Shown here piece by piece: positions 7,488-57,252 of a stretch of DNA of 61,594 nt (positions are counted from its first letter, which is position 1; each line of letters opens with the position of its first letter). Below the pieces are notes generated by a model, which ran no database searches, was not told the origin of the DNA, and saw nothing but the letters and a program-made list of their open reading frames with translations. This DNA is from Alphaproteobacteria bacterium (GTDB lineage: Bacteria; Pseudomonadota; Alphaproteobacteria; SMXQ01), in NCBI GenBank assembly GCA_009380075.1, contig WHSO01000014.1:1-61594 (forward strand), written 5' to 3'. A program made the position numbers and the translations under genes.

Positions 7488-7500
7488 GCGAGGAGGGGCC

Positions 7501-7929
7501 GTGTACAAGAAGATACTGCTGCCCATCGACCTCGACCAGGAAAGCTCCTGGATCCGGGCCCTGCCGGTGGCGGCGGAATACTGCCAGATCTTCGGCGCTC
7601 GGCTTCACCTGCTGACGGTAGTGCCGGAGTTCGGCACCGGCCTGATCGGCAGCTTCTTTCCGCCCGATTTCGAGGAGAAGGCGGTGGCCGAGGCGCGCGA
7701 CCGCATCGAGGCGCTGGCCCGCGACAAGATCTCGCCCAACATCCGGGCCGCCTGCTACGTCGCCCAGGGGACGGTGTACGAGGAAATCCTGGCCACGGCC
7801 CGCGACCTCAAGGCCGACCTCATCGTCATGGCGTCGCACCGCCCCGAACTCAAGGACTACCTGCTCGGCCCCAATGCCGCGCGGGTGGTGCGCCACTCCG
7901 ACGTTTCGGTCCTTGTGGTGCGGAACTGA
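7501..7929 (+). CDS. Universal stress protein, TRAP-associated
   Basis: UspA-type nucleotide-binding protein of 142 residues, cytoplasmic. The GTG at 7501 is chosen because GAGGAGGGG directly precedes it and the protein then begins with the usual YKKILLPIDL. The C-terminal nucleotide-binding segment is seen as MASHRPELKDYLLGPNAARV followed by SVLVV. It begins 13 bp after the TRAP permease. Usp genes downstream of TRAP permeases are known (TeaD with TeaABC in Halomonas), where they tune transport. Such a role is inferred here from position. Confidence 0.92.
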   Translation: MYKKILLPIDLDQESSWIRALPVAAEYCQIFGARLHLLTVVPEFGTGLIGSFFPPDFEEKAVAEARDRIEALARDKISPNIRAACYVAQGTVYEEILATARDLKADLIVMASHRPELKDYLLGPNAARVVRHSDVSVLVVRN

Positions 7930-7940
7930 CGTGCAAACGA

Positions 7941-7968
7941 GAAGGGCCGGTCACCCGACCGGCCCTTC
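7941..7968. terminator. Bidirectional hairpin terminator between convergent genes
   Basis: A perfect 12-bp stem (GAAGGGCCGGTC and its complement) closes a 4-base ACCC loop. It lies just after the universal stress gene and before the 3' end of the convergent cytochrome gene. No clear T-run follows on either strand, so termination strength is uncertain. Confidence 0.75.
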
Positions 7969-8008
7969 CGGGAATCATGCCGAGGGTGCGTCCTCGGGAT
8001 ACGCGACG

Positions 8009-8383
8009 CTACTTCAGCGTCTTCAGATACGCGATGACGTCGTCGCGTTCCTTCTTGGAACGCAGGCCGGCGAAGGCCATGCGCGAACCCTTGATGAGGC
8101 TGTTCGGCTTCTCGAGATACTTGTCGAGGGTTTCGTCGGTCCAGGTCACGCCCGATTTCATGGTCGCGGGCGAATACTTGTAACCTTTGGCGGCCCCCGC
8201 CTTTTGTCCGGCGACGCCGTGCAGGCTCGGTCCGATCTTGTGCTTGCCCTCCCGCGTGTCATGACACACGGCGCACTTCTTGAAGACTTTTTCACCCGCC
8301 TTGGCGTCTCCGGCCGCTTGGGCGGTGCCCGCGGACAGGGCGATGACGGCTACGGACGCTACTGTTACGAATGTCTTGAGCAT
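8009..8383 (-). CDS. Class I c-type cytochrome (cytochrome c2/c550-like)
   Basis: Small periplasmic electron carrier of 124 residues. The ATG at 8383 is selected over an upstream in-frame ATG because a GCGAGGAG ribosome site precedes it and a signal peptide follows (cleavage likely after AQA). The haem motif CAVCH is at residues 37-41. The distal methionine is in SRMAFAGL near residue 99. The order GPSLHGVAG, then YSPATMKSGVTWTDETLDKYL, is standard for the cytochrome c2 family. It is a single-gene unit with a hairpin terminator behind it. The redox partner cannot be told from the sequence. Confidence 0.94.
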   Translation of the reverse strand: MLKTFVTVASVAVIALSAGTAQAAGDAKAGEKVFKKCAVCHDTREGKHKIGPSLHGVAGQKAGAAKGYKYSPATMKSGVTWTDETLDKYLEKPNSLIKGSRMAFAGLRSKKERDDVIAYLKTLK

Positions 8384-8575
8384 GTTCGTAAACTCCTCGC
8401 GCCGGGGTTTCCGGACGGCACCGAAACCGGCCCGTCGCGCGGTTGGAATAGCATCTTGCCCCGATCTTGGCAACCGAGCGGGGACATGCCGGATCGGGCC
8501 GATCCCGCGCCTTTCCGCCGCCGCCGCGGGCCGTTGCGCGGGCCTGCGTCACGGTATATAAGGGCGGGCCTTCTC

Positions 8576-8652
8576 CGGGGAGTAGCTCAGCCTGGTAGAG
8601 CACCACGTTCGGGACGTGGGGGCCGGAGGTTCGAATCCTCTCTCCCCGACCA
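8576..8652 (+). tRNA. tRNA-Pro (anticodon CGG)
   Basis: A 77-base cloverleaf: acceptor CGGGGAG pairs with CTCCCCG, the D arm is GCTC/GAGC, and the anticodon stem CCACG/CGTGG encloses loop TTCGGGA with anticodon CGG. The T loop is TTCGAAT, and CCA is encoded. A TATATA box lies at 8555-8560. A hairpin terminator follows. Confidence 0.97.
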
Positions 8653-8680
8653 ATCCGGATTGGCGGATGGACGAATACAG

Positions 8681-8709
8681 GGCCCGGCGGGCAGGCGCCG
8701 GGCCTTTCT
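8681..8709 (+). terminator. Rho-independent terminator after tRNA-Pro
   Basis: A 9-bp stem (GGCCCGGCG with CGCCGGGCC) and 6-base loop are followed by TTTCT. It lies 28 bp past the tRNA CCA end and before the 3' end of the convergent polyprenyl synthase gene. Confidence 0.75.
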
Positions 8710-8730
8710 GCGTCGCTTCGCCTAATTCGC

Positions 8731-9798
8731 CTAATACGTACGCGCCGCGCAGAACGCGACGACGTCCAGGAGCGCCCGCTTGACGGGATTGTCGGGGAAG
8801 ATATCGAGTGCGTCATGGGCGAGCTGGGTGTAGTGGCGCGCCCGATCGAGGGCATCATTGAGCGTGGCGTGCCGGCGCATCAGCCCGATCGCGTGCCCGA
8901 GGTCGCCGTCGCGCTGCTCCAGCTCCTCGATGGTGCGGCGCCAGAAGGCGCGTTCCTCGTCGTCACCGCGCCGGAACGCGAGGATGACCGGCAGCGTCAC
9001 CTTGCCTTCGCGGAAGTCGTCGCCGTTCTCCTTGCCCATGGTATCGGCGCCGGAGGCGTAATCCATCACGTCGTCGGTGAGCTGGAAGGCGATGCCGAGG
9101 TTGAGGCCGAAGGCGTGCAGCGCTTCTTCCTCGACCTTGGGGCGGCCGCCCACCACCGCGCCGAGGCGTGTCGCCGCCGCGAACAGGGTCGCGGTCTTGG
9201 CGGTGATGACGTCGAGGTAGGACGACTCGGACGTTTCCGTGTCGTTGGCGGTGGTGAGCTGCAACACCTCGCCCTCGGCGATGACCGCGGCGGCGTTGGA
9301 CAGGATCGCCAGCACGTCGAGCGAGCCGTCCGCCACCATCAGTTGGAACGCGCGCGAGAACAGGAAATCGCCCACCAGCACGCTGGGCTTGTTGCCCCAG
9401 ACCGTGTTGGCGGTCGCCATGCCGCGGCGCAGGTCCGACGCGTCGACCACGTCGTCGTGCAGGAGCGTCGCGGTGTGAATGAACTCGACCGCCGCCGCGA
9501 GGCCCGTATGCCGCTGCCCGCGGTAGCCGCACAGCCGGGCCGAACCGAGCACCAGCATCGGCCGCAGCCGCTTGCCGCCGGCGGCGATGATGTGGCCCGC
9601 GAGCTGCGGGATCAGCGCCACCGGGCTTTCCATGTGCTTCAGGATGGTTTCGTTGACGCGCGCGAGATCGTCGGCGACGAGCTGGTGCAATGCGTCGACC
9701 GACGGCCGGGAGTCGCGTTCGCGTGTGTCACCAAAGGGGACGACGATGGCCAAGGGGCTCTCCGCAAGCCGGCGCCGCGGCCCGGTCCCGCCGCGCAC
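8731..9798 (-). CDS. ispB: Polyprenyl (octaprenyl/decaprenyl) diphosphate synthase
   Basis: Trans-prenyltransferase that makes the long isoprenoid tail of ubiquinone from FPP and IPP. The ORF gives 355 residues, 20-30 more than usual, so the true start may be internal. The first aspartate-rich motif is LLHDDVVDASDLRRG and the second is QLTDDVMDYASGADTMGKEN. The GGKRLRP motif that binds IPP is present near residue 74. dxs, which feeds the same precursor pool, lies elsewhere in the window. Chain length (C40 or C50) cannot be judged from motifs alone; ubiquinone-10 would be usual for Alphaproteobacteria. Confidence 0.93.
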   Translation of the reverse strand: MRGGTGPRRRLAESPLAIVVPFGDTRERDSRPSVDALHQLVADDLARVNETILKHMESPVALIPQLAGHIIAAGGKRLRPMLVLGSARLCGYRGQRHTGLAAAVEFIHTATLLHDDVVDASDLRRGMATANTVWGNKPSVLVGDFLFSRAFQLMVADGSLDVLAILSNAAAVIAEGEVLQLTTANDTETSESSYLDVITAKTATLFAAATRLGAVVGGRPKVEEEALHAFGLNLGIAFQLTDDVMDYASGADTMGKENGDDFREGKVTLPVILAFRRGDDEERAFWRRTIEELEQRDGDLGHAIGLMRRHATLNDALDRARHYTQLAHDALDIFPDNPVKRALLDVVAFCAARTY

Positions 9799-11075: not shown

Positions 11076-11312
11076 ATGTTCGGAATGAGCCTTTCCAAGC
11101 TCCTCGTCCTGGCGCTGATCATCGCGGCCGTGTGGTACGGCTACAAGTGGCTGACCCGCGCCGGATCGGCGACGCGGGGCGGCGGGCGGAAACGTTCGGA
11201 CGCGCCGCGGGCGGACGATCTCATCGCCTGTCCGGCTTGCGGCACCTATGTGGCGGCGAGGTTGAAGGAATGTCCGAGCGATCGGACCGATTGCCCGGCA
11301 ATCTCGGGCTAG
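11076..11312 (+). CDS. Small membrane protein with one zinc-ribbon-like CxxC
   Basis: Protein of 78 residues. An N-terminal helix (LVLALIIAAVWYGYKWL) is followed by a basic linker and a cysteine-bearing tail (CPACGTYV, later CPSDRTDCPA). It resembles small hypothetical proteins conserved upstream of glyQ in Rhodospirillales, which carry a membrane segment and four cysteines. The gene ends 15 bp before glyQ on the same strand and probably shares its transcript. No function is known. Confidence 0.8.
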   Translation: MFGMSLSKLLVLALIIAAVWYGYKWLTRAGSATRGGGRKRSDAPRADDLIACPACGTYVAARLKECPSDRTDCPAISG

Positions 11313-11327
11313 GGCAGGAAGCGAAGC

Positions 11328-12212
11328 ATGGCCGCTCGATCCGCGCGCACCAACCCCGACGCGCCCTCGTTCCAGGACCTGATCCTGCGCCTGCAGGCCT
11401 ATTGGGCAGCGCAGGGCTGCCTGATCCTGCAACCCTACGACATGGAGATGGGCGCCGGCACGTTTCATCCGGCGACGACCCTGCGCGCGCTCGGCCCCGA
11501 TCCGTGGCGCGCCGCCTATGTGCAGCCGTGCCGCCGGCCGAGCGACGGGCGCTACGGCGAAAACCCCAACCGCCTGCAGCACTATTACCAGTACCAGGTG
11601 GTGTTGAAGCCGTCGCCTTCGGACGTTCAGCAGCTCTACCTCGACAGCCTTGCCGCGCTCGGCATCACGCCCGCGCGGCACGACATCCGTTTCGTCGAGG
11701 ACGACTGGGAAAGCCCGACGCTGGGCGCCTGGGGGCTCGGCTGGGAAGTGTGGTGCGACGGCATGGAGGTGACCCAGTTCACCTATTTCCAGCAGGTCGG
11801 CGGCATCGAATGCGCGCCGGTGACGGCGGAGCTGACCTATGGGCTCGAACGGCTCGCCATGTACGTGCAGGGGGTGGAGAACGTCTACGACCTCGACTTC
11901 AACGGAAAAGGCGTGACCTACGGCGACGTGTTCCTGCAGAACGAGCGGGAATTCTCGGCCTACAACTTCGAACATGCCGACACGGCGCAATTGTCGGAAG
12001 GGTTCGAGAAGGCCCAGGCGGAGTGCAGCAATCTGCTGGCGGCGAAGCTTGTGCTGCCGGCCTACGACCAGTGCATCAAGGCAAGCCACATGTTCAACCT
12101 GCTCGACGCGCGCGGCGTCATCGCCGTGACCGAGCGCGCCGCCTATATCGGCCGCGTGCGCGACCTCGCCAAGTCCTGCTGCGAGGCCTGGCTCGCGACG
12201 AGGAGCAAGTAG
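11328..12212 (+). CDS. glyQ: Glycine--tRNA ligase alpha subunit
   Basis: Catalytic subunit of the bacterial alpha2-beta2 glycyl-tRNA synthetase, which charges tRNA-Gly. The 294 residues match the family length. Class II landmarks are clear: [55 protein letters not shown], and [22 protein letters not shown] 11328 follows GCAGGAAGCG. The beta-subunit gene starts one base after this stop, so the two are co-translated in near-equal amounts. Confidence 0.97.
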
Positions 12213-12213
12213 C

Positions 12214-14289
12214 GTGGCCGAACTTCTCCTGGAAATCCTGTCGGAGGAAATCCCCGCGCGCATGCAGGCGCGCGCGGCGGACGACCTGAAGCGCCTCGTG
12301 GCCGGCGCGCTGAAGGACGCGGGGCTCGCGTTTTCGGTCGCGAAGGCCTTTGCGACGCCGCGCCGCCTCGCCCTCGTCGTCGACGGCATCCCCGAACGCC
12401 AGCCCGACGTGACTGACGAACGCAAGGGCCCGGCCGTCGGTGCGCCCGACAAGGCGATCGAGGGGTTCCTCGGTTCCGTCGGCCTCGCCCTCGACCAGTG
12501 CGAGAAGCGCGACGTGAAGGGAAAGGAATTCTGGTTCGCGGTGATTTCGCGCAAGGGCCTCGCGACGAAGGACGTGCTGGCGGAGATTCTGCCGGACGTG
12601 CTGGCGAAGCTGCCGTGGCCCAAGTCCATGCGCTGGGGCGCCATCGAGGCGCGCTGGGTGCGCCCGATCCATTCGATCCTGGTGCTGTTCGCCGGCGATG
12701 TGGTGAATTTCACCTTCGCCGGCATGGCGGCGGGGAACACGACAGCAGGCCATCGCTTCCTCGCGCCGCAGGCGTTCACTGTCAGGGATGCCGCCGACTA
12801 CAAAGCGAAGCTGCGCGCGGCCAAAGTCATCCTCGATTCCGAGGAGCGGCGCGAGAGGCTGCTGGAGGACGCCGACCGGCTGGCCGAGGCCGAAGGCCTG
12901 CGCCTGCGCAACGATCCCGCCCTGTTCGAGGAGGTGACGGGTCTCGTCGAATGGCCGGTGGCGCTGATGGGGCGCATCGACGACGCCTTCATGGACCTGC
13001 CGGCCGAGGTGCTGACCGAATCCATGCGCGCGCACCAGAAATATTTCGCGCTGGAGATGAGGGACCATAAGCTCGCACCGCGTTTCGTCACCATCGCCAA
13101 CATGTTGACCGACGACGGCGGCGCGGCGGTCGTCGCCGGCAACGAGCGGGTCCTGCGGGCGCGCCTGTCCGACGCACGCTTCTTCTGGGACCAGGACCGC
13201 AAGGCGAAGCTCGAAAGCCGCGTGGCGAAGCTCGCCGGCATCACCTTCCATGCGAAGCTCGGGACCGTCGCGGAAAAGGTCGACCGTATGGAAAGCCTCG
13301 CCGCCGAACTGTGCGAGTTCATTCCCGGTTCTGATCGCGACAAGGCACGGAGCGCGGCACACCTCGCCAAGGCCGACCTTACCAGCGGCATGGTCGGCGA
13401 GTTCCCGGAATTGCAGGGCATCATGGGCCGCTACTATGCGCTCAACGATGGTGAGGATGCCGACGTCGCTGAGGCCATCGCCCAGCACTATGCGCCGAGG
13501 GGACCGAACGACTCTTGTCCGACGGCGCCCACCGCCATCGCCGTCGCGCTCGCCGACAAGATCGACAGCCTAGTGGGCTTCTTCGCGGTGGGCGAGAAGC
13601 CGACTGGGTCGCGCGATCCCTTCGCGCTTCGGCGCGCGGCTCTGGGTGTGATCCGAATCATCACCGAGAACGGATTGCGGTTGCCCCTCTACGAAGTAAT
13701 TCGAGCTGCCATCACCCCATTTCGGTCGCAGATTCGTGAAACATTCGATTCAGTGGCTGTCCGACACGATCTCATCGATTTTTTTGAGGACCGACTGAAG
13801 GTGCAAATGCGCGAGAAGGGCGTGCGCCACGACCTGATCGACGCTGTCTTCGCGCTGGGAGGCGAGGACGATCTGGTGCGCCTGCTGACACGGGTGGACG
13901 CGCTGACGGCGCTGCTCGGCACCGACGACGGAGCCAACCTGCTGACCGCCTACCGCCGCGCCGCCAACATCGTCGCCATCGAGGAGAAGAAGGACAAGAT
14001 CGCCTACGACGGCGCGGTGGACGAAAAGCTCCTGACCGAGCCCCAGGAAAAGCACCTGAACGAGGTCCTGGCGCGGGAGGAAAAGGCGCTGGCGCAGACC
14101 CTGAAGGCGGAGAAATACGGCGACGCCATGGCGGCGCTCGCCCATCTGCGCGCGCCGGTGGATGCGTTCTTCGACCACGTCACCGTCAATTGCGACGATA
14201 GGGCGCTGCGCGCCAACCGCCTGCGCCTGCTGTCGCGCATCCGCGCGGCGCTCAACCGTGTCGCCGATTTCTCGAAGATCGAAGGTTAG
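12214..14289 (+). CDS. glyS: Glycine--tRNA ligase beta subunit
   Basis: tRNA-binding subunit of glycyl-tRNA synthetase, 691 residues. It starts at GTG 12214 with [17 protein letters not shown], the invariant opening of GlyS. Other landmarks are [26 protein letters not shown] and the C-terminal anticodon-binding part. Its stop codon overlaps that of the convergent ygfZ gene by 4 bases. A stretch at about 13675-13800 is visibly lower in G+C than the rest, and the protein contains VRHDLID twice, 24 residues apart, around it. The reading frame is intact. Confidence 0.97.
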
Positions 14290-43739: not shown

Positions 43740-43848
43740 CGTTGAAAATCCACAATGATATATAGGACTCTAGGGCGAACGTTCTTTGTCAGACACTGGC
43801 GTTGCGCCAAAACACGACAGGGAAGACAGGACGGGGGAGCGAAGGCCC

Positions 43849-44880
43849 ATGAGGTTTCTCAACATTATTGGTATTGCGGCTGCAATGACGCTGTCGATGG
43901 CCCTGAACGGGGCGTCGGCGGAGGATTTCTACGCGGGCAAGACGATCAAGATCGTGACGGGCGGTTCGCCTGGAGGCGGCTACGACACTCATACGCGCAC
44001 CCTGGCGCGGCAGCTTGGCAAGCATGTTCCGGGAAAGCCGAGCATCATCGTGCAGAACATGCCGGGCGGCAGCGGAATCAAGAGCATCAACCACACTTTC
44101 ACAAAGGCCGGAAAGGACGGTACCGAGATCGGCCAGTTCAACCGCAATGCGCTGTTCGCGCGGCTGTTGGGCCACAAAACGGCGCTGTTCAATCTCGACG
44201 AGTTCAACTGGATCGGCTCGACCGCCAGCTATAGCGACAACGCCTGGGTCGTGATCATCAGGAGCGAACTGCCCTACAAGTCCATCGAGGATCTTCGCAA
44301 GGCGCCCAAGCCCGTGGTCTTCGGCAATGTGCGCTCCGTCCTGATCCCGATCACCAAGGAGGCCCTTGGCGCCAATATCAGGATCATCGAGGGCTACGAA
44401 GGCAGCCAGCTCAACCTCGCCTTCGAACGGGGAGAGATCGACGGCATGGGGACCGGCTACTCCAATCTCTTCCGCGAGCATCCGAACTGGCTGAAGGACA
44501 AAAAGGTCCGCATCATGGTACAGTTCGGCAGCGGCGAGCGCATCAAGGCCCTCAAGGACGTGCCGACGGCGCGCGAGGTAGCCGTCTCGCAGGACGACAA
44601 GGATCTGGTCGAATTCAGCGAGCTCGCCCTCACTCTCGGCTATCCTTTCGCGATGCCGCCGGGCGTGCCGAAGGAGCGCGTCGAGATCGTACGCAAGGCA
44701 TTCATCGCGGCGGTCAGCGATTCGGCCTACCTGGCCGAAGCGAAGAAGGCAAAGCTCGAGGTTACGCCGCGTTTCGGCGACAAGCTCGAAGCCGCCGTCA
44801 TCAAGGCCGCGAAGGCGCCGCAGAGCCTGATTGCGCGCTACAAGCGGCTCGCCGGGGAAAGCGGCGACAAAACCAGATAA
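43849..44880 (+). CDS. tctC: Tripartite tricarboxylate transporter substrate-binding protein (TctC/Bug)
   Basis: Periplasmic binding protein of 343 residues. ATG 43849 gives a standard signal peptide (cleavage near ASAEDF); an in-frame ATG 63 bp earlier does not. The Bug family pattern is TIKIVTGGSPGGGYDTHTRT, HVPGKPSIIVQNMPGGSGIK and the later GYPFAMPPGVPKERVEIVRK. The ligand loop has GGGYD rather than the more usual GGxxD. The fused permease gene follows after a hairpin. The ligand is likely a di- or tricarboxylate or aromatic acid but is not determinable. Confidence 0.92.
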   Translation: MRFLNIIGIAAAMTLSMALNGASAEDFYAGKTIKIVTGGSPGGGYDTHTRTLARQLGKHVPGKPSIIVQNMPGGSGIKSINHTFTKAGKDGTEIGQFNRNALFARLLGHKTALFNLDEFNWIGSTASYSDNAWVVIIRSELPYKSIEDLRKAPKPVVFGNVRSVLIPITKEALGANIRIIEGYEGSQLNLAFERGEIDGMGTGYSNLFREHPNWLKDKKVRIMVQFGSGERIKALKDVPTAREVAVSQDDKDLVEFSELALTLGYPFAMPPGVPKERVEIVRKAFIAAVSDSAYLAEAKKAKLEVTPRFGDKLEAAVIKAAKAPQSLIARYKRLAGESGDKTR

Positions 44881-48333: not shown

Positions 48334-49443
48334 CTACTCCGCCTCTTTCTTCTTCTTTTTCTTCTTTTTCTTCGCGCAGGCGGTCTTGTCCGAGCGTGCC
48401 TGGCAGCTTTCGTAGTTGGAGCCGTATTCCATCGCCTTCTCGGCGTCGGCCAGAAGCTCCTTCGGCGTCGCCATCATCTCCGCCGTCAGCCGGTCAAGCT
48501 CGACCCCGCTGGTCGGCTGGACCTCGTGGTTGAGCTTCTTCGCCTCGGCCAGGAACGCCTTGTCCTTCATGGTCGTGTCGAAGGCGGCGCGCAGGAGGTT
48601 CACGCGATCTCTGGGTACGCCGGGGGCGACGTACATGGGCCGGCCGGTGTCGATCTGGGCGGCGAAGAGGTTGAGGATCTGGCGCGAGCGCGGGTCCTTG
48701 GCGAGATCGCTCATCAGCGGCACGGCGGGCAGTTCCGGGTCGCGCTTGAGGGCGAGTTGGGCGAGGATGCGGATTTTCCTGTCGCGGATCCAGTCGGGCC
48801 GGACGCTCTTCCACCCCGCCCAGGACTGGCCGGCGCGGCCGTGGACCTCGCCGCGTTCCATGGCGAGGTCGATGTGGTTGCCGTTGTAGCCCAGCGCGAG
48901 CTTGAACTTCGTGCCGATCAGGTTGTTGGCGAGCGCGATGACGATGGCGGCCGAGGCGCGGCTGGTGGTCGCACCGAAGACGTAAACGTCCTTCTTGCCG
49001 TCTTCCATGGTCTTGATCGGGGCGGCGTGCCAGACCGCGACCAGGGCGACGGAGCTCTGCGGACTGCCGATCCATTGCAGCCTGGCCGCGTCGTACTTGA
49101 CGCTCTTGTCGCCGAACAACTGGCGCATGGGCAGCGACTGGTGCGCCGCCGACAGCACCGAGCCGTCCTTCGGCGCGATGTTGTAGACGTAGTTGGCGGC
49201 GATCAGGCCGGTGGCGCCGGGCATGTTCTGGGTGACGACGCGCGGGTTCCCGGGGATGTGCCGCGCGATATGCCCGCCGACAAGACGCGCAGTGATGTCG
49301 TAGCTGGTGCCGACGTTGTTGCCGATGATCAGCTTGATCTGCCTGTTCTTGTAGAAATCATCGGCACCGGCGGGCCCGCCCGCGGCCAGTGCGGCCAGCG
49401 CCGTGGCCGCGGCGATGGTTGCGTTGCGAATGCTGGATGTCAT
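48334..49443 (-). CDS. Orphan TctC/Bug-type binding protein with polylysine tail
   Basis: Protein of 369 residues; ATG 49443 gives a signal peptide ending near GPAGADDF, while the longer ORF upstream has no such feature. Bug-family segments are RQIKLIIGNNVGTSYDITAR, HIPGNPRVVTQNMPGATGLI and MYVAPGVPRDRVNLLRAAFD. The C-terminus carries two cysteines (ESCQARSDKTACA) and then nine consecutive lysines followed by EAE. No tctA/tctB gene adjoins it, so it may serve a remote permease or be a sensor. The lysine tail is unusual for a periplasmic protein. Confidence 0.9.
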   Translation of the reverse strand: MTSSIRNATIAAATALAALAAGGPAGADDFYKNRQIKLIIGNNVGTSYDITARLVGGHIARHIPGNPRVVTQNMPGATGLIAANYVYNIAPKDGSVLSAAHQSLPMRQLFGDKSVKYDAARLQWIGSPQSSVALVAVWHAAPIKTMEDGKKDVYVFGATTSRASAAIVIALANNLIGTKFKLALGYNGNHIDLAMERGEVHGRAGQSWAGWKSVRPDWIRDRKIRILAQLALKRDPELPAVPLMSDLAKDPRSRQILNLFAAQIDTGRPMYVAPGVPRDRVNLLRAAFDTTMKDKAFLAEAKKLNHEVQPTSGVELDRLTAEMMATPKELLADAEKAMEYGSNYESCQARSDKTACAKKKKKKKKKEAE

Positions 49444-49692
49444 GTGCCGTCCCCCTGTATAGCGTGAGCCGGTGTAATCCCGGCATTGGGAGAAGGATAG
49501 GCCGTGCGTCCGCCCGCTGCAACCCGGGCGCGGACGGCGTAAGGAACCGTTCGCCCGTTGAAACGTATATCTAGCGTCGTGGCGGGACGGATCGGCGCCC
49601 GCCATGCGATTTCCTGCGAGCCGTCTTTTCGCCACATGTGTCGTCTATTGTTCTTAACGCATTTCTCAACCAATCAAATACCGGAGGACATT

Positions 49693-51064: not shown

Positions 51065-51625
51065 ATGGCTCCGGTTTCCGCCACCCATGCCATGCTGTCC
51101 AAGCCCTCCGCCTGGGTGAAGGACGCCATCGCGCGCTACGAGCCGCTCGGGCCGGAGGGCCTGCGCGTGCTTGACCTCGCCGCCGGCGGTGGACGCCACG
51201 CGCGGCACCTGCTCGACCTCGAATATGCGGTGCTGGCGGTCGACCGCGACATCGGCGGACTCGCGTATCTCGACGGGCGCGACGGATTCGAGGCTCTGGC
51301 CTGGGACCTCGAGGACGGCTCGCCCTGGTCCTTCGCCGACGAGCACTTCCGCGCCATCGTCGTCACCAATTACCTTCACCGGCCGACGCTGGCGCGCGTC
51401 CTCGGCCTGGTGGCGCCGGGCGGATTCCTGGTCTATGAGACCTTCGGCACCGGCAACGAACGTTTCGGCAAGCCGTCCAACCCGGATTTCCTCGCATGCC
51501 CGCACGAGATCGCGGACGCCGCCCGCGCCGCCGGGATGGACGTGCTGGTGGACGAGCACCGCGAGATCGAAGACCCGCGTCCGGCGGTGGTGCATCGCTG
51601 CGTCGCGCGCCGGCCCGGGGTCTGA
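51065..51625 (+). CDS. Class I SAM-dependent methyltransferase (TehB-like)
   Basis: Methyltransferase of 186 residues. Motif I is VLDLAAGGGRHARHLLD, the acidic end of strand two is AVDRD, and the later IVVTNYLHRP plus LVAPGGFLVYETFGTGNERF match motifs IV-V. The FGKPSNPDFL insertion is common in a group annotated as tellurite-resistance TehB homologues or small-molecule methyltransferases. It ends one base before the AMP-ligase fusion gene, so the two are translationally linked. The substrate is not clear. Confidence 0.88.
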   Translation: MAPVSATHAMLSKPSAWVKDAIARYEPLGPEGLRVLDLAAGGGRHARHLLDLEYAVLAVDRDIGGLAYLDGRDGFEALAWDLEDGSPWSFADEHFRAIVVTNYLHRPTLARVLGLVAPGGFLVYETFGTGNERFGKPSNPDFLACPHEIADAARAAGMDVLVDEHREIEDPRPAVVHRCVARRPGV

Positions 51626-51626
51626 C

Positions 51627-54248
51627 GTGGCCTGGTCCTTCGACGACTTCTTCGCAACGCTCGCCCGGACGCCCGAAAGGCCGGCGGTGCTGTCCGTCGG
51701 CGAGGGCGGCGCTACGACCCTGAAAGCGGGCGATCTCGACGCGATATCGGCGCGCATCGCCGGATCCCTTTCCGCCACGGGTGTTGCCGCCGGCGACCCG
51801 GTCGCCCTGCTCGGGCCGAACACCGCCGAATGGGTCACCTGTTGGCTGGCGCTCACGCGCCTCGGCGCGGTGGTGGTGGCCCTCGACGACCTGTCATCGG
51901 CCGAGGAGGCCGCGGTCGCCATCGCCGATGCCGGGGCCCGGCACGTACTCGCGAGCGACGCCCATATCGCGGCGCTCAGGGGCGATTCGCGCCTTGATGG
52001 CGTGACGATGACGGCAATCGCGGACACGCTCGCCCCGGCGAAGGCGGGCTCGCCGCGAGGGAACGGCGTGCCCGTACACAGGCCGGCGGATGCTGCCGCC
52101 GTCATGGTCTATACCTCCGGCACCACGGGCGTACCCAAGAGCTTCGTCCTGACCTGCGCCAATATCACCGCGAATATCACGGCGCTCATCGACGAAGGAA
52201 TCCTGAAGTCCCACGACAAGGTGCTGCTGCCGCTGCCGCTGCATCACGTCTATCCGCTGGTGGTCGGGCTGCTGACGCCGCTCGCGACAGGGGCGACGGT
52301 GGTCCTGCCCCAGGCGGCAACGGGGCCGGAGATCGTCCGCGCACTCGCCGCCACCGGCACGACGGCGATGGTCGGCGTGCCGCGCCTCTACAGCGCGTTG
52401 GTCGACGGGCTCGACGCTCGGGTGCGCGCCGGCGGGCGGCTTGCGGTCGCCGCCTCCGCCATGCTTCTGGCAGTGTCGGGATGGTTGCGCCGGAACCTCG
52501 GCATCAACGCGGGTCGGGTGCTGTTCGCGCCGCTCCACCGCCGCCTCGGCGGGGCGCTCCGGATCATGGTCTCCGGAGGCGCCCGGCTCGAGCCGCAGAT
52601 CGTCGCGCGGCTCGACGCGCTGGGGTTCGAGACGCTGACCGGCTACGGCCTGGCCGAGACCGCGTCGCTGTTCACCGGCAACCGGCCGGGTCGCAAGCGG
52701 ATTGGCTCGGAGGGGCTGCCGCTCGCGGGCGGTCAGGTGCGCATCGGCACGCCGGACGCGGAGGGCGCCGGAGAGATCGAGCTCAAGGGGCCGAGCGTCT
52801 TTTCCGGCTACCGCAACGCGAGCACGGCGGGCGCTTCCCCTTTCAGCGACGACGGCTGGTTCCGCACCGGCGATGTCGGCACCCTCGACGCCGACGGCTA
52901 TCTCTACGTCACCGGCCGGGTCAAGGAGATGATCGTGCTCGGCGGCGGCAAGAACGTCTTCCCCGAAGAGCTCGAAAAACGCTACGGCGCCGATCCGGCG
53001 ATCGCCGAGATCGCGGTGCTGGAGCACGGCGGCAAGCTGGTGGCCCTGGTGCGGCCAGATATTCCGGCCCTCAAGGCCGCGGCGCGGGCGCGCCTGCGCG
53101 ACGCGGTGCGCGTCGCCATCGAACAGGCGCGGGGCACCTTGCCGTCGTACCAGCGCCTCGCCGGTTTCGCGCTGGTGAGCGCGCCCCTGCCGCGCACGCG
53201 GCTCGGCAAGTACCGTCGTTTCCAGTTGCCGGAACTCTATGAGCAGGCGACATCCTCCGCGGAACGTCCGGCGGCGGCTCCGATGGACGAGGCCGACCGG
53301 CGTCTCGTCGCCGATCCAGTGGGCCGGGAAGTGTGGGCACTCTTGCAGGCGCGCTACGGCACGCGGGGGCTTGCGATGGATGCGAGCCCGGAGCTCGACC
53401 TCGGCATCGATTCTCTCGAGTGGGTGACGCTGGCCCTTGAGTTCGAAAGCCGCCTCGGCCTGAACATCTCCTCCGACGACGTCGCGCGGATCGTGACCGT
53501 GCGCGACCTCGTCCGGCTGGCGGTCGATGCCGCTCAGTCGGGAACTGCGCCCAAGACCGAAAGCGCTGCGCCGGATGAGCGCTTCATCGCGCCGCCCGGG
53601 CCGTTCGCGCATCTGTGCGGCATCCTGATTGGCGGGCTCAATCGGCTGATCGCGCGCGGCGTCTTCCGGCTGCGGGTCGAGGCCGAGGGCCCCTGGCCTG
53701 GCCCTGACCGGCCCTTCGTGATCGTCGCCAATCACACGAGCGACCTCGACGCGCTGTTCCTGTCGGCTGCCCTGCCGCCGCGGTTGTCCCGCCGGGTATG
53801 GTGGGGCGGGGAAGTGACCCGCCTGTTCGGCAGCGCGGCGGCGCGGGCCCTGAGCCGGACCGTGCAGATTTTCCCGGTCGACGAGCGCCATCCCCGGGCG
53901 GCGATCGACCTTGCCCGCAAGGTGCTGGCGCGCGGCGACGGGCTCGGCTGGTTCCCCGAATCGTGGCGATCGGCGACGGGCGAACTGCAGGAATTCCTGC
54001 CCGGCATCGGTATGGTCATGGAGGGAAGCGAGGACGCGGCGGTGATCCCGGCCGGAATCCTTGGTGCGTTCGAAATTATGCCGCGGACCGCGCGCTGGCC
54101 GCGGCTGGGCAAGGTCCGCATCCGGTTCGGCCCGCAGGTTCGCGTGGCGGAGCTCCTGGCGGAAGGGACGGGTGGGACCGATGCCGAGCGGGTCGCCGAC
54201 GCCTTGCGGCGCCGGGTCGCCACCCTGATCGCCGACGCGTCGCGCTGA
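51627..54248 (+). CDS. AMP-dependent acyl ligase - ACP - PlsC acyltransferase fusion
   Basis: Three-domain lipid enzyme of 873 residues from GTG 51627. Residues 1-540: AMP-binding ligase, with VYTSGTTGVPKS near 165, TGYGLAETASLF, and WFRTGDVGTLDADGYLYVTG. Residues 560-640: acyl-carrier domain with LGIDSLEWVTLA, where the serine takes phosphopantetheine. Residues 660-873: PlsC-type acyltransferase with ANHTSDLDALF (HX4D box, near 702) and GLGWFPESWRS in place of the usual EGTRS. The order suggests a fatty acid is activated, loaded on the built-in carrier and passed to a lysophospholipid-like acceptor. Six stretches of weak hydrophobicity suggest membrane association. Confidence 0.9.
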   Translation: MAWSFDDFFATLARTPERPAVLSVGEGGATTLKAGDLDAISARIAGSLSATGVAAGDPVALLGPNTAEWVTCWLALTRLGAVVVALDDLSSAEEAAVAIADAGARHVLASDAHIAALRGDSRLDGVTMTAIADTLAPAKAGSPRGNGVPVHRPADAAAVMVYTSGTTGVPKSFVLTCANITANITALIDEGILKSHDKVLLPLPLHHVYPLVVGLLTPLATGATVVLPQAATGPEIVRALAATGTTAMVGVPRLYSALVDGLDARVRAGGRLAVAASAMLLAVSGWLRRNLGINAGRVLFAPLHRRLGGALRIMVSGGARLEPQIVARLDALGFETLTGYGLAETASLFTGNRPGRKRIGSEGLPLAGGQVRIGTPDAEGAGEIELKGPSVFSGYRNASTAGASPFSDDGWFRTGDVGTLDADGYLYVTGRVKEMIVLGGGKNVFPEELEKRYGADPAIAEIAVLEHGGKLVALVRPDIPALKAAARARLRDAVRVAIEQARGTLPSYQRLAGFALVSAPLPRTRLGKYRRFQLPELYEQATSSAERPAAAPMDEADRRLVADPVGREVWALLQARYGTRGLAMDASPELDLGIDSLEWVTLALEFESRLGLNISSDDVARIVTVRDLVRLAVDAAQSGTAPKTESAAPDERFIAPPGPFAHLCGILIGGLNRLIARGVFRLRVEAEGPWPGPDRPFVIVANHTSDLDALFLSAALPPRLSRRVWWGGEVTRLFGSAAARALSRTVQIFPVDERHPRAAIDLARKVLARGDGLGWFPESWRSATGELQEFLPGIGMVMEGSEDAAVIPAGILGAFEIMPRTARWPRLGKVRIRFGPQVRVAELLAEGTGGTDAERVADALRRRVATLIADASR

Positions 54249-54341
54249 TCGCTCCCCGGCGGCATGTGATCCCGTATTGGCCGATTCACCCCCGTGGACT
54301 ATCCTGAACAAAACCGGCAAATGATATTGGGGAGAGGCAAC

Positions 54342-55622
54342 ATGCGGGGAATGACGTCAGGTCGCGCACTCGCGGCGGCGCTTTGCGCAGTTCTGTTGGG
54401 CGGTACGGCGCAGGCCCAGTCGGTCGAGGATTTCTACAAGGGCAAGCGGCTCCGGCTGATCGTCGGCGGTTCGGCCGGCGGCGGCTACGACACCTACGCC
54501 CGTGCCTTCGTCCGCTACTACGTGCGCTATATCCCCGGCAAGCCATCGGTGATCGTGCAGAATATGCAGGGGGCGGGCGGCGTGCTTGCCACCAATTTCA
54601 TTGCCAGCGGCGCGGTGCCCAGGGACGGCAGCGTTTTCGCCACAAGCCTGCGCACGGTGGCGACGGCGCCGCTGCTCGATCCCAGGGGCACCAAATACGA
54701 TGCCAACAAGCTCAACTGGATCGGCAGCCTCGCCAACGAGGTATCGCTGTGCGTCTCGTGGCATACCTCGCCGGTCAAGACGTTCGCCGATGCGCAGAAG
54801 CAGGAACTGATCGTCGGTGCTTCCAACGGCAACGACACGGAAATCATTCCCGCCGTGTTCAACAACCTGCTCGGCACGAAGTTCAAGATCGTCGTCGGCT
54901 ATGTCGCCGTCGGTATCAACGTCGCCATGGAGCGCGGCGAGGTGGCGGGGCGCTGTTCGTGGTCGTGGTCGTCGCTGCTCAGCCAGCGACCCGACTGGAT
55001 CCGCGACAAGAAGATCAACCTTCTGGTGCTGACGTCGAACAAGCGCCATCCGGATATCCCGGCGGAGGTGCCGCTGATCATGGACTTCGCGCGCAATGAC
55101 GCCGACCGGACGCTGCTCGAGATTTTCCTCCTGCCCCAGGTGATGGGGCGGCCCTATTTCCTGCCCGACGGCGTGCCGGCGGAACGGGTCGCGGCGCTGC
55201 GTAAGGCCTTCGACGAAACCGCGAAGGACCCCGGCATGGCCGCGGATTTCAAGCGCCTCAAGCTCGAACTGTCGCCGGTGTCGGGCGAGGAAATCCAGGC
55301 CATGCTGACCCGCGTCTATGCCACGCCACCGGAGGTCATCGCGAGGGCCCGTGACGCCATGCGCTACAAGGGTGAAAAGATGGTGGCGCAGATCAAGACC
55401 GTGAAGACCAGCGGCACCGTGCTTCTGTCGATCCGCGAAGGCCGTCAGATCGAGTTCAAGCTCGCGGACGGCAAGACGGCGAAGACCAGCGTGTCGGGCA
55501 GCAAGACCAAGGTGACGATCTCGGGTAAAAAGGCGACGCGCGCCGAGATCAAGGCGGGCATGACCTGCGCCATCGAATGGCCGGGACCGGGCCAACAGGC
55601 CAGGAGCCTCGACTGCAAGTAG
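54342..55622 (+). CDS. Orphan TctC/Bug-type binding protein with extra C-terminal domain
   Basis: Exported protein of 426 residues from ATG 54342 (GGGGAGAGG upstream; signal cleavage near AQAQSV). Bug features are RLRLIVGGSAGGGYDTYARA, YIPGKPSVIVQNMQGAGGVL and YFLPDGVPAERVAALRKAFD. It is about 85 residues longer than the family; the additional tail (TVLLSIREGRQIEFKLADGK through IKAGMTCAIEWPGPG) looks like a small all-beta domain with two cysteines. No permease gene is next to it. It follows the ligase fusion by 93 bp. Confidence 0.9.
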   Translation: MRGMTSGRALAAALCAVLLGGTAQAQSVEDFYKGKRLRLIVGGSAGGGYDTYARAFVRYYVRYIPGKPSVIVQNMQGAGGVLATNFIASGAVPRDGSVFATSLRTVATAPLLDPRGTKYDANKLNWIGSLANEVSLCVSWHTSPVKTFADAQKQELIVGASNGNDTEIIPAVFNNLLGTKFKIVVGYVAVGINVAMERGEVAGRCSWSWSSLLSQRPDWIRDKKINLLVLTSNKRHPDIPAEVPLIMDFARNDADRTLLEIFLLPQVMGRPYFLPDGVPAERVAALRKAFDETAKDPGMAADFKRLKLELSPVSGEEIQAMLTRVYATPPEVIARARDAMRYKGEKMVAQIKTVKTSGTVLLSIREGRQIEFKLADGKTAKTSVSGSKTKVTISGKKATRAEIKAGMTCAIEWPGPGQQARSLDCK

Positions 55623-55813
55623 GACGGGGTTTCGGCCACGCCCGAGCATCGCGGCGCGCCCGTGCCCGCCGGACTTGCGGTGCGTCGCTGTCATTATCGT
55701 GTTTGACTCGTCAAATGAACAAGGATGTCAACGCGTTAGCTGTTCATCCCCGGTTCAGCTTGCCCCCGGTACGATAGCGCCTGACTCGAACCTTTCAGCC
55801 TTGGGAGGTCGTC

Positions 55814-56110
55814 ATGAGACTCAGGACCTTCGCCTTCGCCCTCGCCGCCGCCGCCATGATCGGGTTTGCCGATGCGCCGGCCCGTGCGGACGGCATCTCC
55901 TTCAGCTTCGGGTATCACGGTGGTCACTTCGGCCAGAAGCACGCTTTCCATGGCCACAAGCGCGTCTTTCGGCATCATGGGCGCCACCATTTTCACCGGC
56001 GCGTCTATCCGCACCCCCGGCGGTTTCTCTTCTTTCACGGCCACCCGTACTGGCATGGGAGACCGCCGTTTCCTCCGCGACGGCATGTCTACATCTACCG
56101 CCGCTACTGA
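55814..56110 (+). CDS. Secreted histidine-rich protein
   Basis: Protein of 98 residues from ATG 55814 behind GGGAGG, with a clear signal peptide (cleavage near PARADG). The mature 70 residues are packed with His, Arg, Phe and Tyr: SFGYHGGHFGQKHAFHGHKR, VFRHHGRHHFHRRVYPHPRR. Such composition binds transition metals, and similar short His/Arg/Tyr-rich exports in Alphaproteobacteria are uncharacterised. A TTTGAC-TC-GTCAAA inverted repeat at 55702-55715 may be its operator. Confidence 0.8.
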   Translation: MRLRTFAFALAAAAMIGFADAPARADGISFSFGYHGGHFGQKHAFHGHKRVFRHHGRHHFHRRVYPHPRRFLFFHGHPYWHGRPPFPPRRHVYIYRRY

Positions 56111-56142
56111 GCGCGCTTCGTGCCGTTCGTGAGCGGGCGTTA

Positions 56143-56280
56143 GGGCCCGCTTTCCACGGACTAAATCAATTTGTGGACTCGTCATCGCCCTCCCCCGACG
56201 TGTTCGGGGGATCATCCGGGCGATCCATCTCATGGATGCCCCGCATGCGCGGGGCATGACGTGTCAACGTTAGGGCAACA
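56143..56280. repeat. Dispersed palindromic repeat, locus D
   Basis: Fills the gap between two convergent genes. It begins GGGCCCGCTTTCCACGGACT, contains TCGTCATCGCCC, a CCCCCGA-TCGGGGG hairpin (56191-56211), GATGCCCCGC-GCGGGGCAT (56234-56258), and ends near CAACGTTAGGGC, which echoes the TTAGGGC at the left end. Same family as 34.9, 37.3 and 48.2 kb. Confidence 0.75.
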
Positions 56281-56284
56281 TGCT

Positions 56285-57196
56285 CTACGCCGACAGCTTG
56301 GCGTCGACGATCTTGTCGTAGGTGCTGTCCGCCGACAGCAGGCCCCAGCTGACCATCCAGTTGTAGATGTGGTCGTATTCGTCCGGTGTGTAGGGACGGG
56401 GATAGATGTAGCGGAAACGGCCGAGGTAGAAATCGTCCCACGTCAGCTTGCAGACATCGGTGGGCACTTCCTTGATCAGGTACTTGAGGTAGGGACGGAT
56501 ATCCTTGTGGATCTCGTCCACCGCCCGGCGCACCGAGCGATCGATGGCGGCATAGGTGTCGGGCGCCAGCGAGGGCACCGTCACCTCGGCACCGTCGTAG
56601 AACGCCTCGCAGATGATCTTGTGGCCACGCTTCAGCGCCACGGTGATCCACGGTTCCATCAGCGCCGCGGCACCGATCTTGCCTTCCTCGAGGAACTTGA
56701 GGCGCTGCTTGGGTCCACCAACGTGGCCGACGCGGACCTGGTCCTTGTTCATGTAGCCGCCCAGGAGGCCCAGCGTGATGTAGTGCGAGCCCGCGTGCAT
56801 GTTGACGCCGACCAGCACGTTGCGCAGGTCCGGGGGGATGTTGTAGGGGCTGTCGCCCTTGACCACGATCGCCTGGGTCGCCACGGCGGCGCGCTTGGTG
56901 ATCACGCGGGCGTCCTGGCAGCTGTCCTGGGTGCGGCGGATCTGCCCCCACTCGCAGGCGCGGTACATGGAGAACTCGCCCTTTTCGATACCCTCGTGCC
57001 AGCCGTAGGACTTGACGGCAGTGTGGTCCTCGATCGGTTTGTCGGGGACTTCCTTGTCGCGGTCGCGTCCGGAACCGGCGGGCACCAGGGTCACGTCGAG
57101 GCCTTCCTGTTCGAAGATGCCCTTCTCCTTCGCCACGTGATAGGGCAGTGAGAAGACGGCGTTGTTGACTTCAATCCTTGCCGGGGTAAGCGCCAT
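56285..57196 (-). CDS. NMT1/SsuA-like substrate-binding-fold protein without signal peptide
   Basis: Protein of 303 residues from ATG 57196. It begins MALTPARIEVNNAVFSLPYH, so it has no export signal, although the fold (VAKEKGIFEQEGLDVTLVPA, RCWxx-type absent, EEGKIGAAALMEPWITVALK) is that of ABC-transporter binding proteins of the NMT1/THI5 type. Cytoplasmic members include pyrimidine-synthesis enzymes and 4,5-dihydroxyphthalate decarboxylase. Because a C-C hydrolase-like gene and an isomerase-like gene lie nearby on the same strand, a catabolic enzyme is as likely as a transporter part. No ABC permease is present. Confidence 0.8.
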   Translation of the reverse strand: MALTPARIEVNNAVFSLPYHVAKEKGIFEQEGLDVTLVPAGSGRDRDKEVPDKPIEDHTAVKSYGWHEGIEKGEFSMYRACEWGQIRRTQDSCQDARVITKRAAVATQAIVVKGDSPYNIPPDLRNVLVGVNMHAGSHYITLGLLGGYMNKDQVRVGHVGGPKQRLKFLEEGKIGAAALMEPWITVALKRGHKIICEAFYDGAEVTVPSLAPDTYAAIDRSVRRAVDEIHKDIRPYLKYLIKEVPTDVCKLTWDDFYLGRFRYIYPRPYTPDEYDHIYNWMVSWGLLSADSTYDKIVDAKLSA

Positions 57197-57252
57197 GAGG
57201 ATGTCTCCTTCTTCGTCGTGCGCCCTTGGTGTGGGCGGCTCGTCACGTGTGG

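Follow-up and report, generated by a model that had tools for sequence, protein, structure and literature searches.

Here we describe a predicted enzyme in which an acyl-AMP ligase, an acyl carrier protein (ACP), and a PlsC-type acyltransferase are joined in one chain, and we show that it is a member of a conserved three-domain family and not a one-off. The gene occupies positions 51627 to 54248 (plus strand) of the window, by which we mean the whole 61,594-nucleotide stretch of alphaproteobacterial DNA that was analyzed. We propose, at a probability of about one in two, that the protein is an Aas-like lipid re-acylation enzyme equipped with its own carrier, with a presumed acceptor of the lysophospholipid type.

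Domain architecture and predicted folds

The open reading frame begins at a GTG codon and encodes 873 residues followed by a stop. The initial annotation held that activation, carrier, and transfer steps are fused in this one protein, and both the Pfam domain order (AMP-binding, phosphopantetheine carrier, and PlsC-type acyltransferase, from the N to the C terminus) and the retention of active-site residues bear this out. The AMP-binding (adenylating) domain (residues 9 to 395; positions 51651 to 52811, on the plus strand like all features of this gene) matches PF00501 at 222.9 bits, above the curated cut-off, and contains the motifs YTSGTTGxPK and GYGLAE, which are seen in relatives as well. 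The C-terminal subdomain of the ligase (residues 448 to 528; 52968 to 53210) matches PF13193 (AMP-binding_C) at 20.7 bits, below the cut-off of 24.5, and ends at a conserved lysine, Lys528, within the sequence PRTRLGK, which we take to be the A10 motif. It is followed by the ACP domain, delimited by the helices of the predicted model at residues 555 to 637 (53289 to 53537) and matching PF00550 over residues 590 to 631 (29.1 bits; cut-off, 20.8), with a presumed phosphopantetheine attachment site at Ser596 in GIDSLEW (codon 53412 to 53414). The PlsC-type glycerolipid acyltransferase domain (residues 656 to 873; 53592 to 54245) matches PF01553 over residues 693 to 811 (44.9 bits; curated cut-off, 23) and carries the HX4D motif as HTSDLD (residues 703 to 708; 53733 to 53750) and motif III as FPESWRS (residues 776 to 782; 53952 to 53972). 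A longer in-frame reading of 1,025 residues, starting at TTG 51171, was rejected; its extra part lies, out of frame, inside an upstream methyltransferase open reading frame, and the relatives are similar from about residue 3 of the 873-residue form onward.

Structure prediction for the full-length chain gave a mean pLDDT of 86.8 and a pTM of 0.57, because of which the placement of the ligase relative to the rest is unsure. The ACP-PlsC half modeled by itself reached a pLDDT of 93.6 and a pTM of 0.83 and is confidently predicted to fold as a carrier protein plus a PlsC-type acyltransferase. In VIA-align comparisons of the predicted model, the PlsC part was closest to Thermotoga PlsC (5kym; Z 21.8, rmsd 2.5, 199 aligned), followed by glycerol-3-phosphate acyltransferases (Z of ∼17), PatA (best Z 11.0), and LpxM (Z 10.0), and the carrier part matched many solved ACPs at a Z of ∼9. 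The ligase matched acyl-CoA synthetases, and the EntE-EntB fusion 3rg2 was among the structural matches.

A conserved family with a variant motif III

A search for the domain architecture across genomes, which the initial annotation had suggested as a check, showed that the fusion recurs. In its own order, 6 of 11 genomes (own genome included) match the family profile at an E value of ≤1e-100; full-length relatives are present in 4 of the 10 others, and a fifth (G009) is cut by the end of its contig. Sampling of the class gave matches at ≤1e-120 in 20 of 385 genomes (own included), two of them with genes cut by contig ends (residues 4 to 669 in G133 and 58 to 870 in G314), and G157, G193, and G214 hold two copies each. 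The copies of G193 (contig C13, locus L133) are nearly in tandem, at 6864 to 9539 and 11271 to 13925, yet fall on different branches of the tree and have different motif III sequences (FPEAWRS and FPEEWRS). The sample of the phylum yielded matches at ≤1e-110 in 10 of 398 genomes, eight of which cover the ligase only; the full-length protein was found in 2 of the 398 (G000 and G168), both belonging to the same class as the window. A scan of named genomes recovered at least 80 loci, and the matches listed include relatives in Kiloniellaceae, Ferruginivarius sediminum, Roseomonas sp. HF4, and Nitrospira and Nitrospirota bins, with more remote members in Geobacter argillaceus and Planctomycetota. 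In public databases its members are presumably filed as AMP-binding proteins without a name, and we found no description of a ligase-ACP-PlsC protein in the titles and abstract beginnings of the openly licensed PMC papers listed by our searches.

Relatives are colinear with the window protein at 45 to 54% identity. In all 31 aligned rows (window included), Lys528, Ser596, His703, Asp708, Glu778, and Ser782 are invariant, as are Thr163, Ser164, Gly165, and Lys171 of the adenylation loop, and conservation among these 31 proteins reaches 90% or more at Trp775, Pro777, and Arg781. Purifying selection acts on each domain in close pairs: across three such pairs, dN/dS was 0.15 to 0.19 over the whole gene, 0.06 to 0.28 for the domains taken separately, and 0.09 to 0.28 for the PlsC part. 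Between the window gene and its nearest relative (L106) dN/dS was 0.40 at a dS of ∼1, and 0.34 for the PlsC part.

The initial annotation had also singled out motif III, which reads FPESWRS instead of EGTRS. This is a real variant but no oddity of one protein, as the tryptophan, in the form F(P/A)E-x-WRS, occurs together with Glu, Arg, and Ser in 20 of 38 aligned rows (FPESWRS in 11, FPEEWRS in 4, FPEAWRS in 3, and FPEGWRS and FAEGWRS in 1 each); being so common, it was ruled out as a sign of inactivity. The Glu, Arg, and Ser of motif III are important in the PlsC family, and the variant retains all three. Fourteen of the other 18 rows read FPEG-x-RS, the form that most outer rows have, and four depart further (FPEGVLS in L142, FPEGERT in L036, SPEGRLS in L034, and APEGHID in L044). 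On a tree built without the motif III columns, in which some joins involve long branches (L033 and L037), the tryptophan needs a single change, although the SH-aLRT value of 85 for the corresponding clade is not high. Six rows of five loci that are fragments or have broken frames (L109, L147, two of L035, L032, and L041) were left out before the tree was built, and L022, on the same contig as L136, was left out before alignment; among the rows set aside, L109 has FPESWRS and one of the L035 rows has FPEGRRS.

Gene neighborhoods in the window and in relatives

Directly upstream of the fusion gene is a small methyltransferase open reading frame (51065 to 51625, plus strand; PF13649 at 26.8 bits versus a cut-off of 27), and the initial annotation proposed that this coupling could build a modified lipid. 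The spacing is indeed one base, from the end at 51625 to the GTG at 51627, but a functional link is not conserved in genomes of the order. The methyltransferase is matched in seven other genomes of the order, of which four (G001, G002, G005, and G008) have no fusion match at ≤1e-100 and three (G006, G009, and G010) carry the two genes on separate contigs (linkage in G009 being undecidable because the fusion contig ends inside the gene); two further genomes, G003 and G007, carry the fusion but give no match to the methyltransferase. Nor was a fusion match found around the methyltransferase orthologues in G001, G002, G005, G008, and G010 (stretches L173 to L177), and we rejected the methyltransferase as a functional partner.

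The genome of G001, from the same genus, adds local detail. There the methyltransferase gene and a hydrolase gene converge, their stop codons seven bases apart and no fusion between them, and after the hydrolase come the GluQ-like, VOC, and decarboxylase-like genes also seen in the window (names assigned by eye). Genome comparison thus places a 5.6-kb segment (51626 to 57252) between the methyltransferase and hydrolase genes of the window that is missing at the same place in G001; besides the fusion, it contains a TctC-like receptor (26.9 bits versus a Pfam cut-off of 27), a small open reading frame, and what is by eye an NMT1-like binding protein. Since G001 does without this segment, the tight coupling seems to be a chance product of local gain or loss, and nothing favors a modified lipid derived from it over the re-acylation of ordinary lysophospholipids.

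A 12-kb part of the window contains three genes for TctC-like receptors (43786 to 44880, 48334 to 49635, and 54294 to 55622), all of which hit the same genes in relatives; the third is the one inside the segment missing from G001. The second, on the minus strand, ends in nine consecutive lysines, AKKKKKKKKKEAE, which may reflect slippage in an A-rich tract.

Across 38 places in 37 stretches, no operon common to the whole family was seen among the neighbors listed. The sole recurring neighbor that is sensible for lipid work is an ATG22-type major facilitator superfamily (MFS) gene, which is not found at the window gene. At 5 of the 38 places (L023, L024, L136, L140, and L142), it lies within two genes of the fusion and shares its orientation; PF11700 confirms the assignment for L023, L136, L140, and L142, and the L024 gene clusters with these by BLAST. 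The adjacency requires three changes on the tree, in three lineages. Against ∼0.06 independent cases expected by chance (a value set by hand), the probability of three or more is 3e-5, a rough, post hoc figure that is uncorrected for the many families looked at.

At the remaining 33 places, window included, no ATG22 gene was found within flanks of 0.1 to 10 kb. Of the 23 genomes that match the fusion, 22 contain at least one ATG22 match somewhere, and the only one in the window genome is on another contig. The two genes are adjacent in G157 and G334 only, short contigs in G006, G009, G133, and G314 being not judgeable; in G168, an ATG22 match on the fusion contig lies ∼14 kb off and was left out of the count. 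Of the three ATG22 matches in G157, one adjoins each of the two fusion copies (L136 and L142). The same genome also encodes a separate LplT-Aas-type protein. The two ATG22-type neighbors that were scanned against NCBIfam did not match any LplT model, and no report of bacterial ATG22 proteins with lysophospholipids was found in titles and abstract beginnings of the openly licensed PMC papers listed by our searches. MFS_1 genes near L106 and L034, and by eye near L044, carry no weight because that family is too common.

Other surroundings are restricted to parts of the family. Five loci (L132, L133, L137, L139, and L141) have a gene of the protein-L-isoaspartate methyltransferase (PCMT) type upstream (an assignment made by Pfam on the L132 gene alone) and, by eye, a helicase-like gene downstream, both at up to 5 kb; with a small S4-like open reading frame, also downstream and by eye, the distances extend to 7 kb. 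At L134 (5415 to 11937), the relative has as neighbors a RimK-like ATP-grasp gene and a ligase of the PaaK type that scores below its family cut-offs, in what is perhaps a small biosynthetic cluster. At L034, an AcpS-like open reading frame (5678 to 5992; 25.2 bits versus a cut-off of 25) overlaps the start of the distant relative by four bases, which fits with a carrier that needs loading.

Proposed role and comparison with known systems

The domain anatomy suggests a chemistry that runs from acyl-AMP through acyl-ACP to an acceptor. The N-terminal ligase would convert a free fatty acid and ATP to acyl-AMP, the acyl group would then be taken up by a phosphopantetheine arm that the internal ACP would carry on Ser596, and the C-terminal PlsC domain would transfer it from there to a free hydroxyl group on an acceptor of the lysophospholipid type, which would be acylated at the inner face of the membrane. 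The outcome would be fatty-acid salvage and phospholipid repair or remodeling apart from the housekeeping PlsX/PlsC route. Of these elements, we infer the phosphopantetheinylation, the order of transfer, the fatty-acid substrate, and the lysophospholipid acceptor.

Salvage or repair of a lysophospholipid is favored, indirectly, by this Aas-like chemistry, by Aas-type NCBIfam matches, and by an accessory status of the gene. When the PlsC domain alone was compared to NCBIfam, the best matches were of the Aas type (PRK08633, 44.0 bits; PRK08043, the bifunctional Aas model, 34.2 bits; PRK06814, 32.8 bits), and the general AGP_acyltrn model scored below them at 31.4 bits. These values are far below the cut-offs (886 for PRK08043 and 1349 for PRK06814), as is that of the whole protein against PRK08633 (135.7 bits; cut-off, 1221), and PRK08043 and PRK06814 are absent from the best 25 of 112 whole-protein matches. 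The accessory status follows from the own genome keeping one PlsX match and two further PF01553 matches, one of which (L158) carries FPQGTRT as read by eye. The genome also has a single PF01648 match, a phosphopantetheinyl transferase gene whose product could load the ACP of the fusion.

A mutual avoidance of Aas and the fusion was considered and is not significant. Aas matches at ≤1e-150 occur in 2 of 20 genomes with the fusion versus 93 of 365 others (one-sided Fisher P = 0.09; two samples of 385 were taken as the same genomes), and two genomes, G157 and G105, have both proteins. By hand count, 76 of these 95 matches span both Aas domains, 2 of them in fusion genomes (P = 0.21); some of the 95 are ligase-only or transporter-only.

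A different acceptor is the main, though rather unlikely, alternative, in which the PlsC domain acylates something other than a glycerophospholipid (an amino-lipid, a glycolipid, a hopanoid, or a secondary metabolite) and the built-in ACP channels a chosen acyl chain into this special product. The tryptophan in motif III and variable gene contexts such as that of L134 are consistent with it, as is the service of dedicated AasR/AcpR channels to sphingolipid synthesis, as outlined in PMC9386255. The PlsC fold does extend to PatA and LpxM, though at about half the Z score reached with PlsC, and the domain is nearer to PlsC and Aas than to either of them; moreover, no biosynthetic neighbor is common to the family among the neighbors listed in the cross-locus comparison, and the methyltransferase of the window is unlinked elsewhere.

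Decidedly unlikely is a bypass of PlsX/PlsC that would make phosphatidic acid by acylating lysophosphatidic acid at sn-2 with activated exogenous or recycled fatty acids. The lysophosphatidic acid acyltransferase PlsC is the best fold match and the Glu, Arg, and Ser of motif III are kept, but PlsX and two other PF01553 matches are already present in the genome, the Aas models outscore the AGP model by a small margin, and the tryptophan variant may mean a different acceptor pocket. That the ligase and ACP act alone, with the PlsC domain inactive or a mere membrane anchor, is very improbable, because the departure of motif III from EGTRS and its degradation in the distant L034 and L044 stand against the invariance of HX4D and of the motif III Glu and Ser in all 31 rows and against the low dN/dS of the PlsC part, in the three close pairs and between the window and L106.

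Re-acylation by an enzyme with its own carrier, if true, would mean that certain bacteria, among them a minority of the alphaproteobacteria, can salvage free fatty acids into lipids without CoA or the housekeeping ACP, by means of a single enzyme on which the acyl group stays until it is transferred. Such a protein would be a clean model of substrate channeling from adenylation to a membrane acyltransferase, and it would suggest what the ATG22-type transporters adjoining the fusion in some bacteria may do.

Several known systems share parts of this arrangement. With PlsC, the fusion has in common the fold, HX4D, and FPExxRS; it differs in the attached ligase and ACP and in the tryptophan of motif III. 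FAAL-ACP and NRPS adenylation-carrier proteins such as EntE-EntB likewise place a carrier domain after adenylation, but there a synthase or condensation module receives the acyl group, whereas the fusion has a PlsC domain. In alphaproteobacteria, AasR and AcpR provide dedicated acyl-ACP channels for free fatty acids, and in Caulobacter sphingolipid synthesis a dedicated synthetase and a dedicated ACP similarly feed one lipid pathway; as outlined in the same source, these are separate proteins and the user of the acyl-ACP is serine palmitoyltransferase, not PlsC (PMC9386255).

By chemistry, the closest parallel is with Escherichia coli Aas (2-acylglycerophosphoethanolamine acyltransferase/acyl-ACP synthetase) and the LplT-Aas pair, which share fatty-acid activation, an ACP thioester, and PlsC-type transfer. 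As outlined in PMC11416262, Aas makes acyl-ACP with a borrowed ACP and then passes the acyl group to lysophospholipid delivered by the MFS protein LplT, and its transferase domain comes first. The fusion differs from both in having the ligase first, a built-in ACP, and no LplT part, and by order and score it is not a member of Aas; we infer by analogy that it would work like Aas. The ATG22-type MFS genes adjoining some relatives recall the pairing of the MFS protein LplT with Aas (PMC11416262). An extended version of the proposal, which we consider unlikely, would make the fusions a widespread family of one-chain lysophospholipid re-acylation enzymes independent of CoA and AcpP, with ATG22-type flippases as partners in several lineages and the motif III tryptophan setting the choice of acceptor, and hence an independent counterpart of LplT-Aas.
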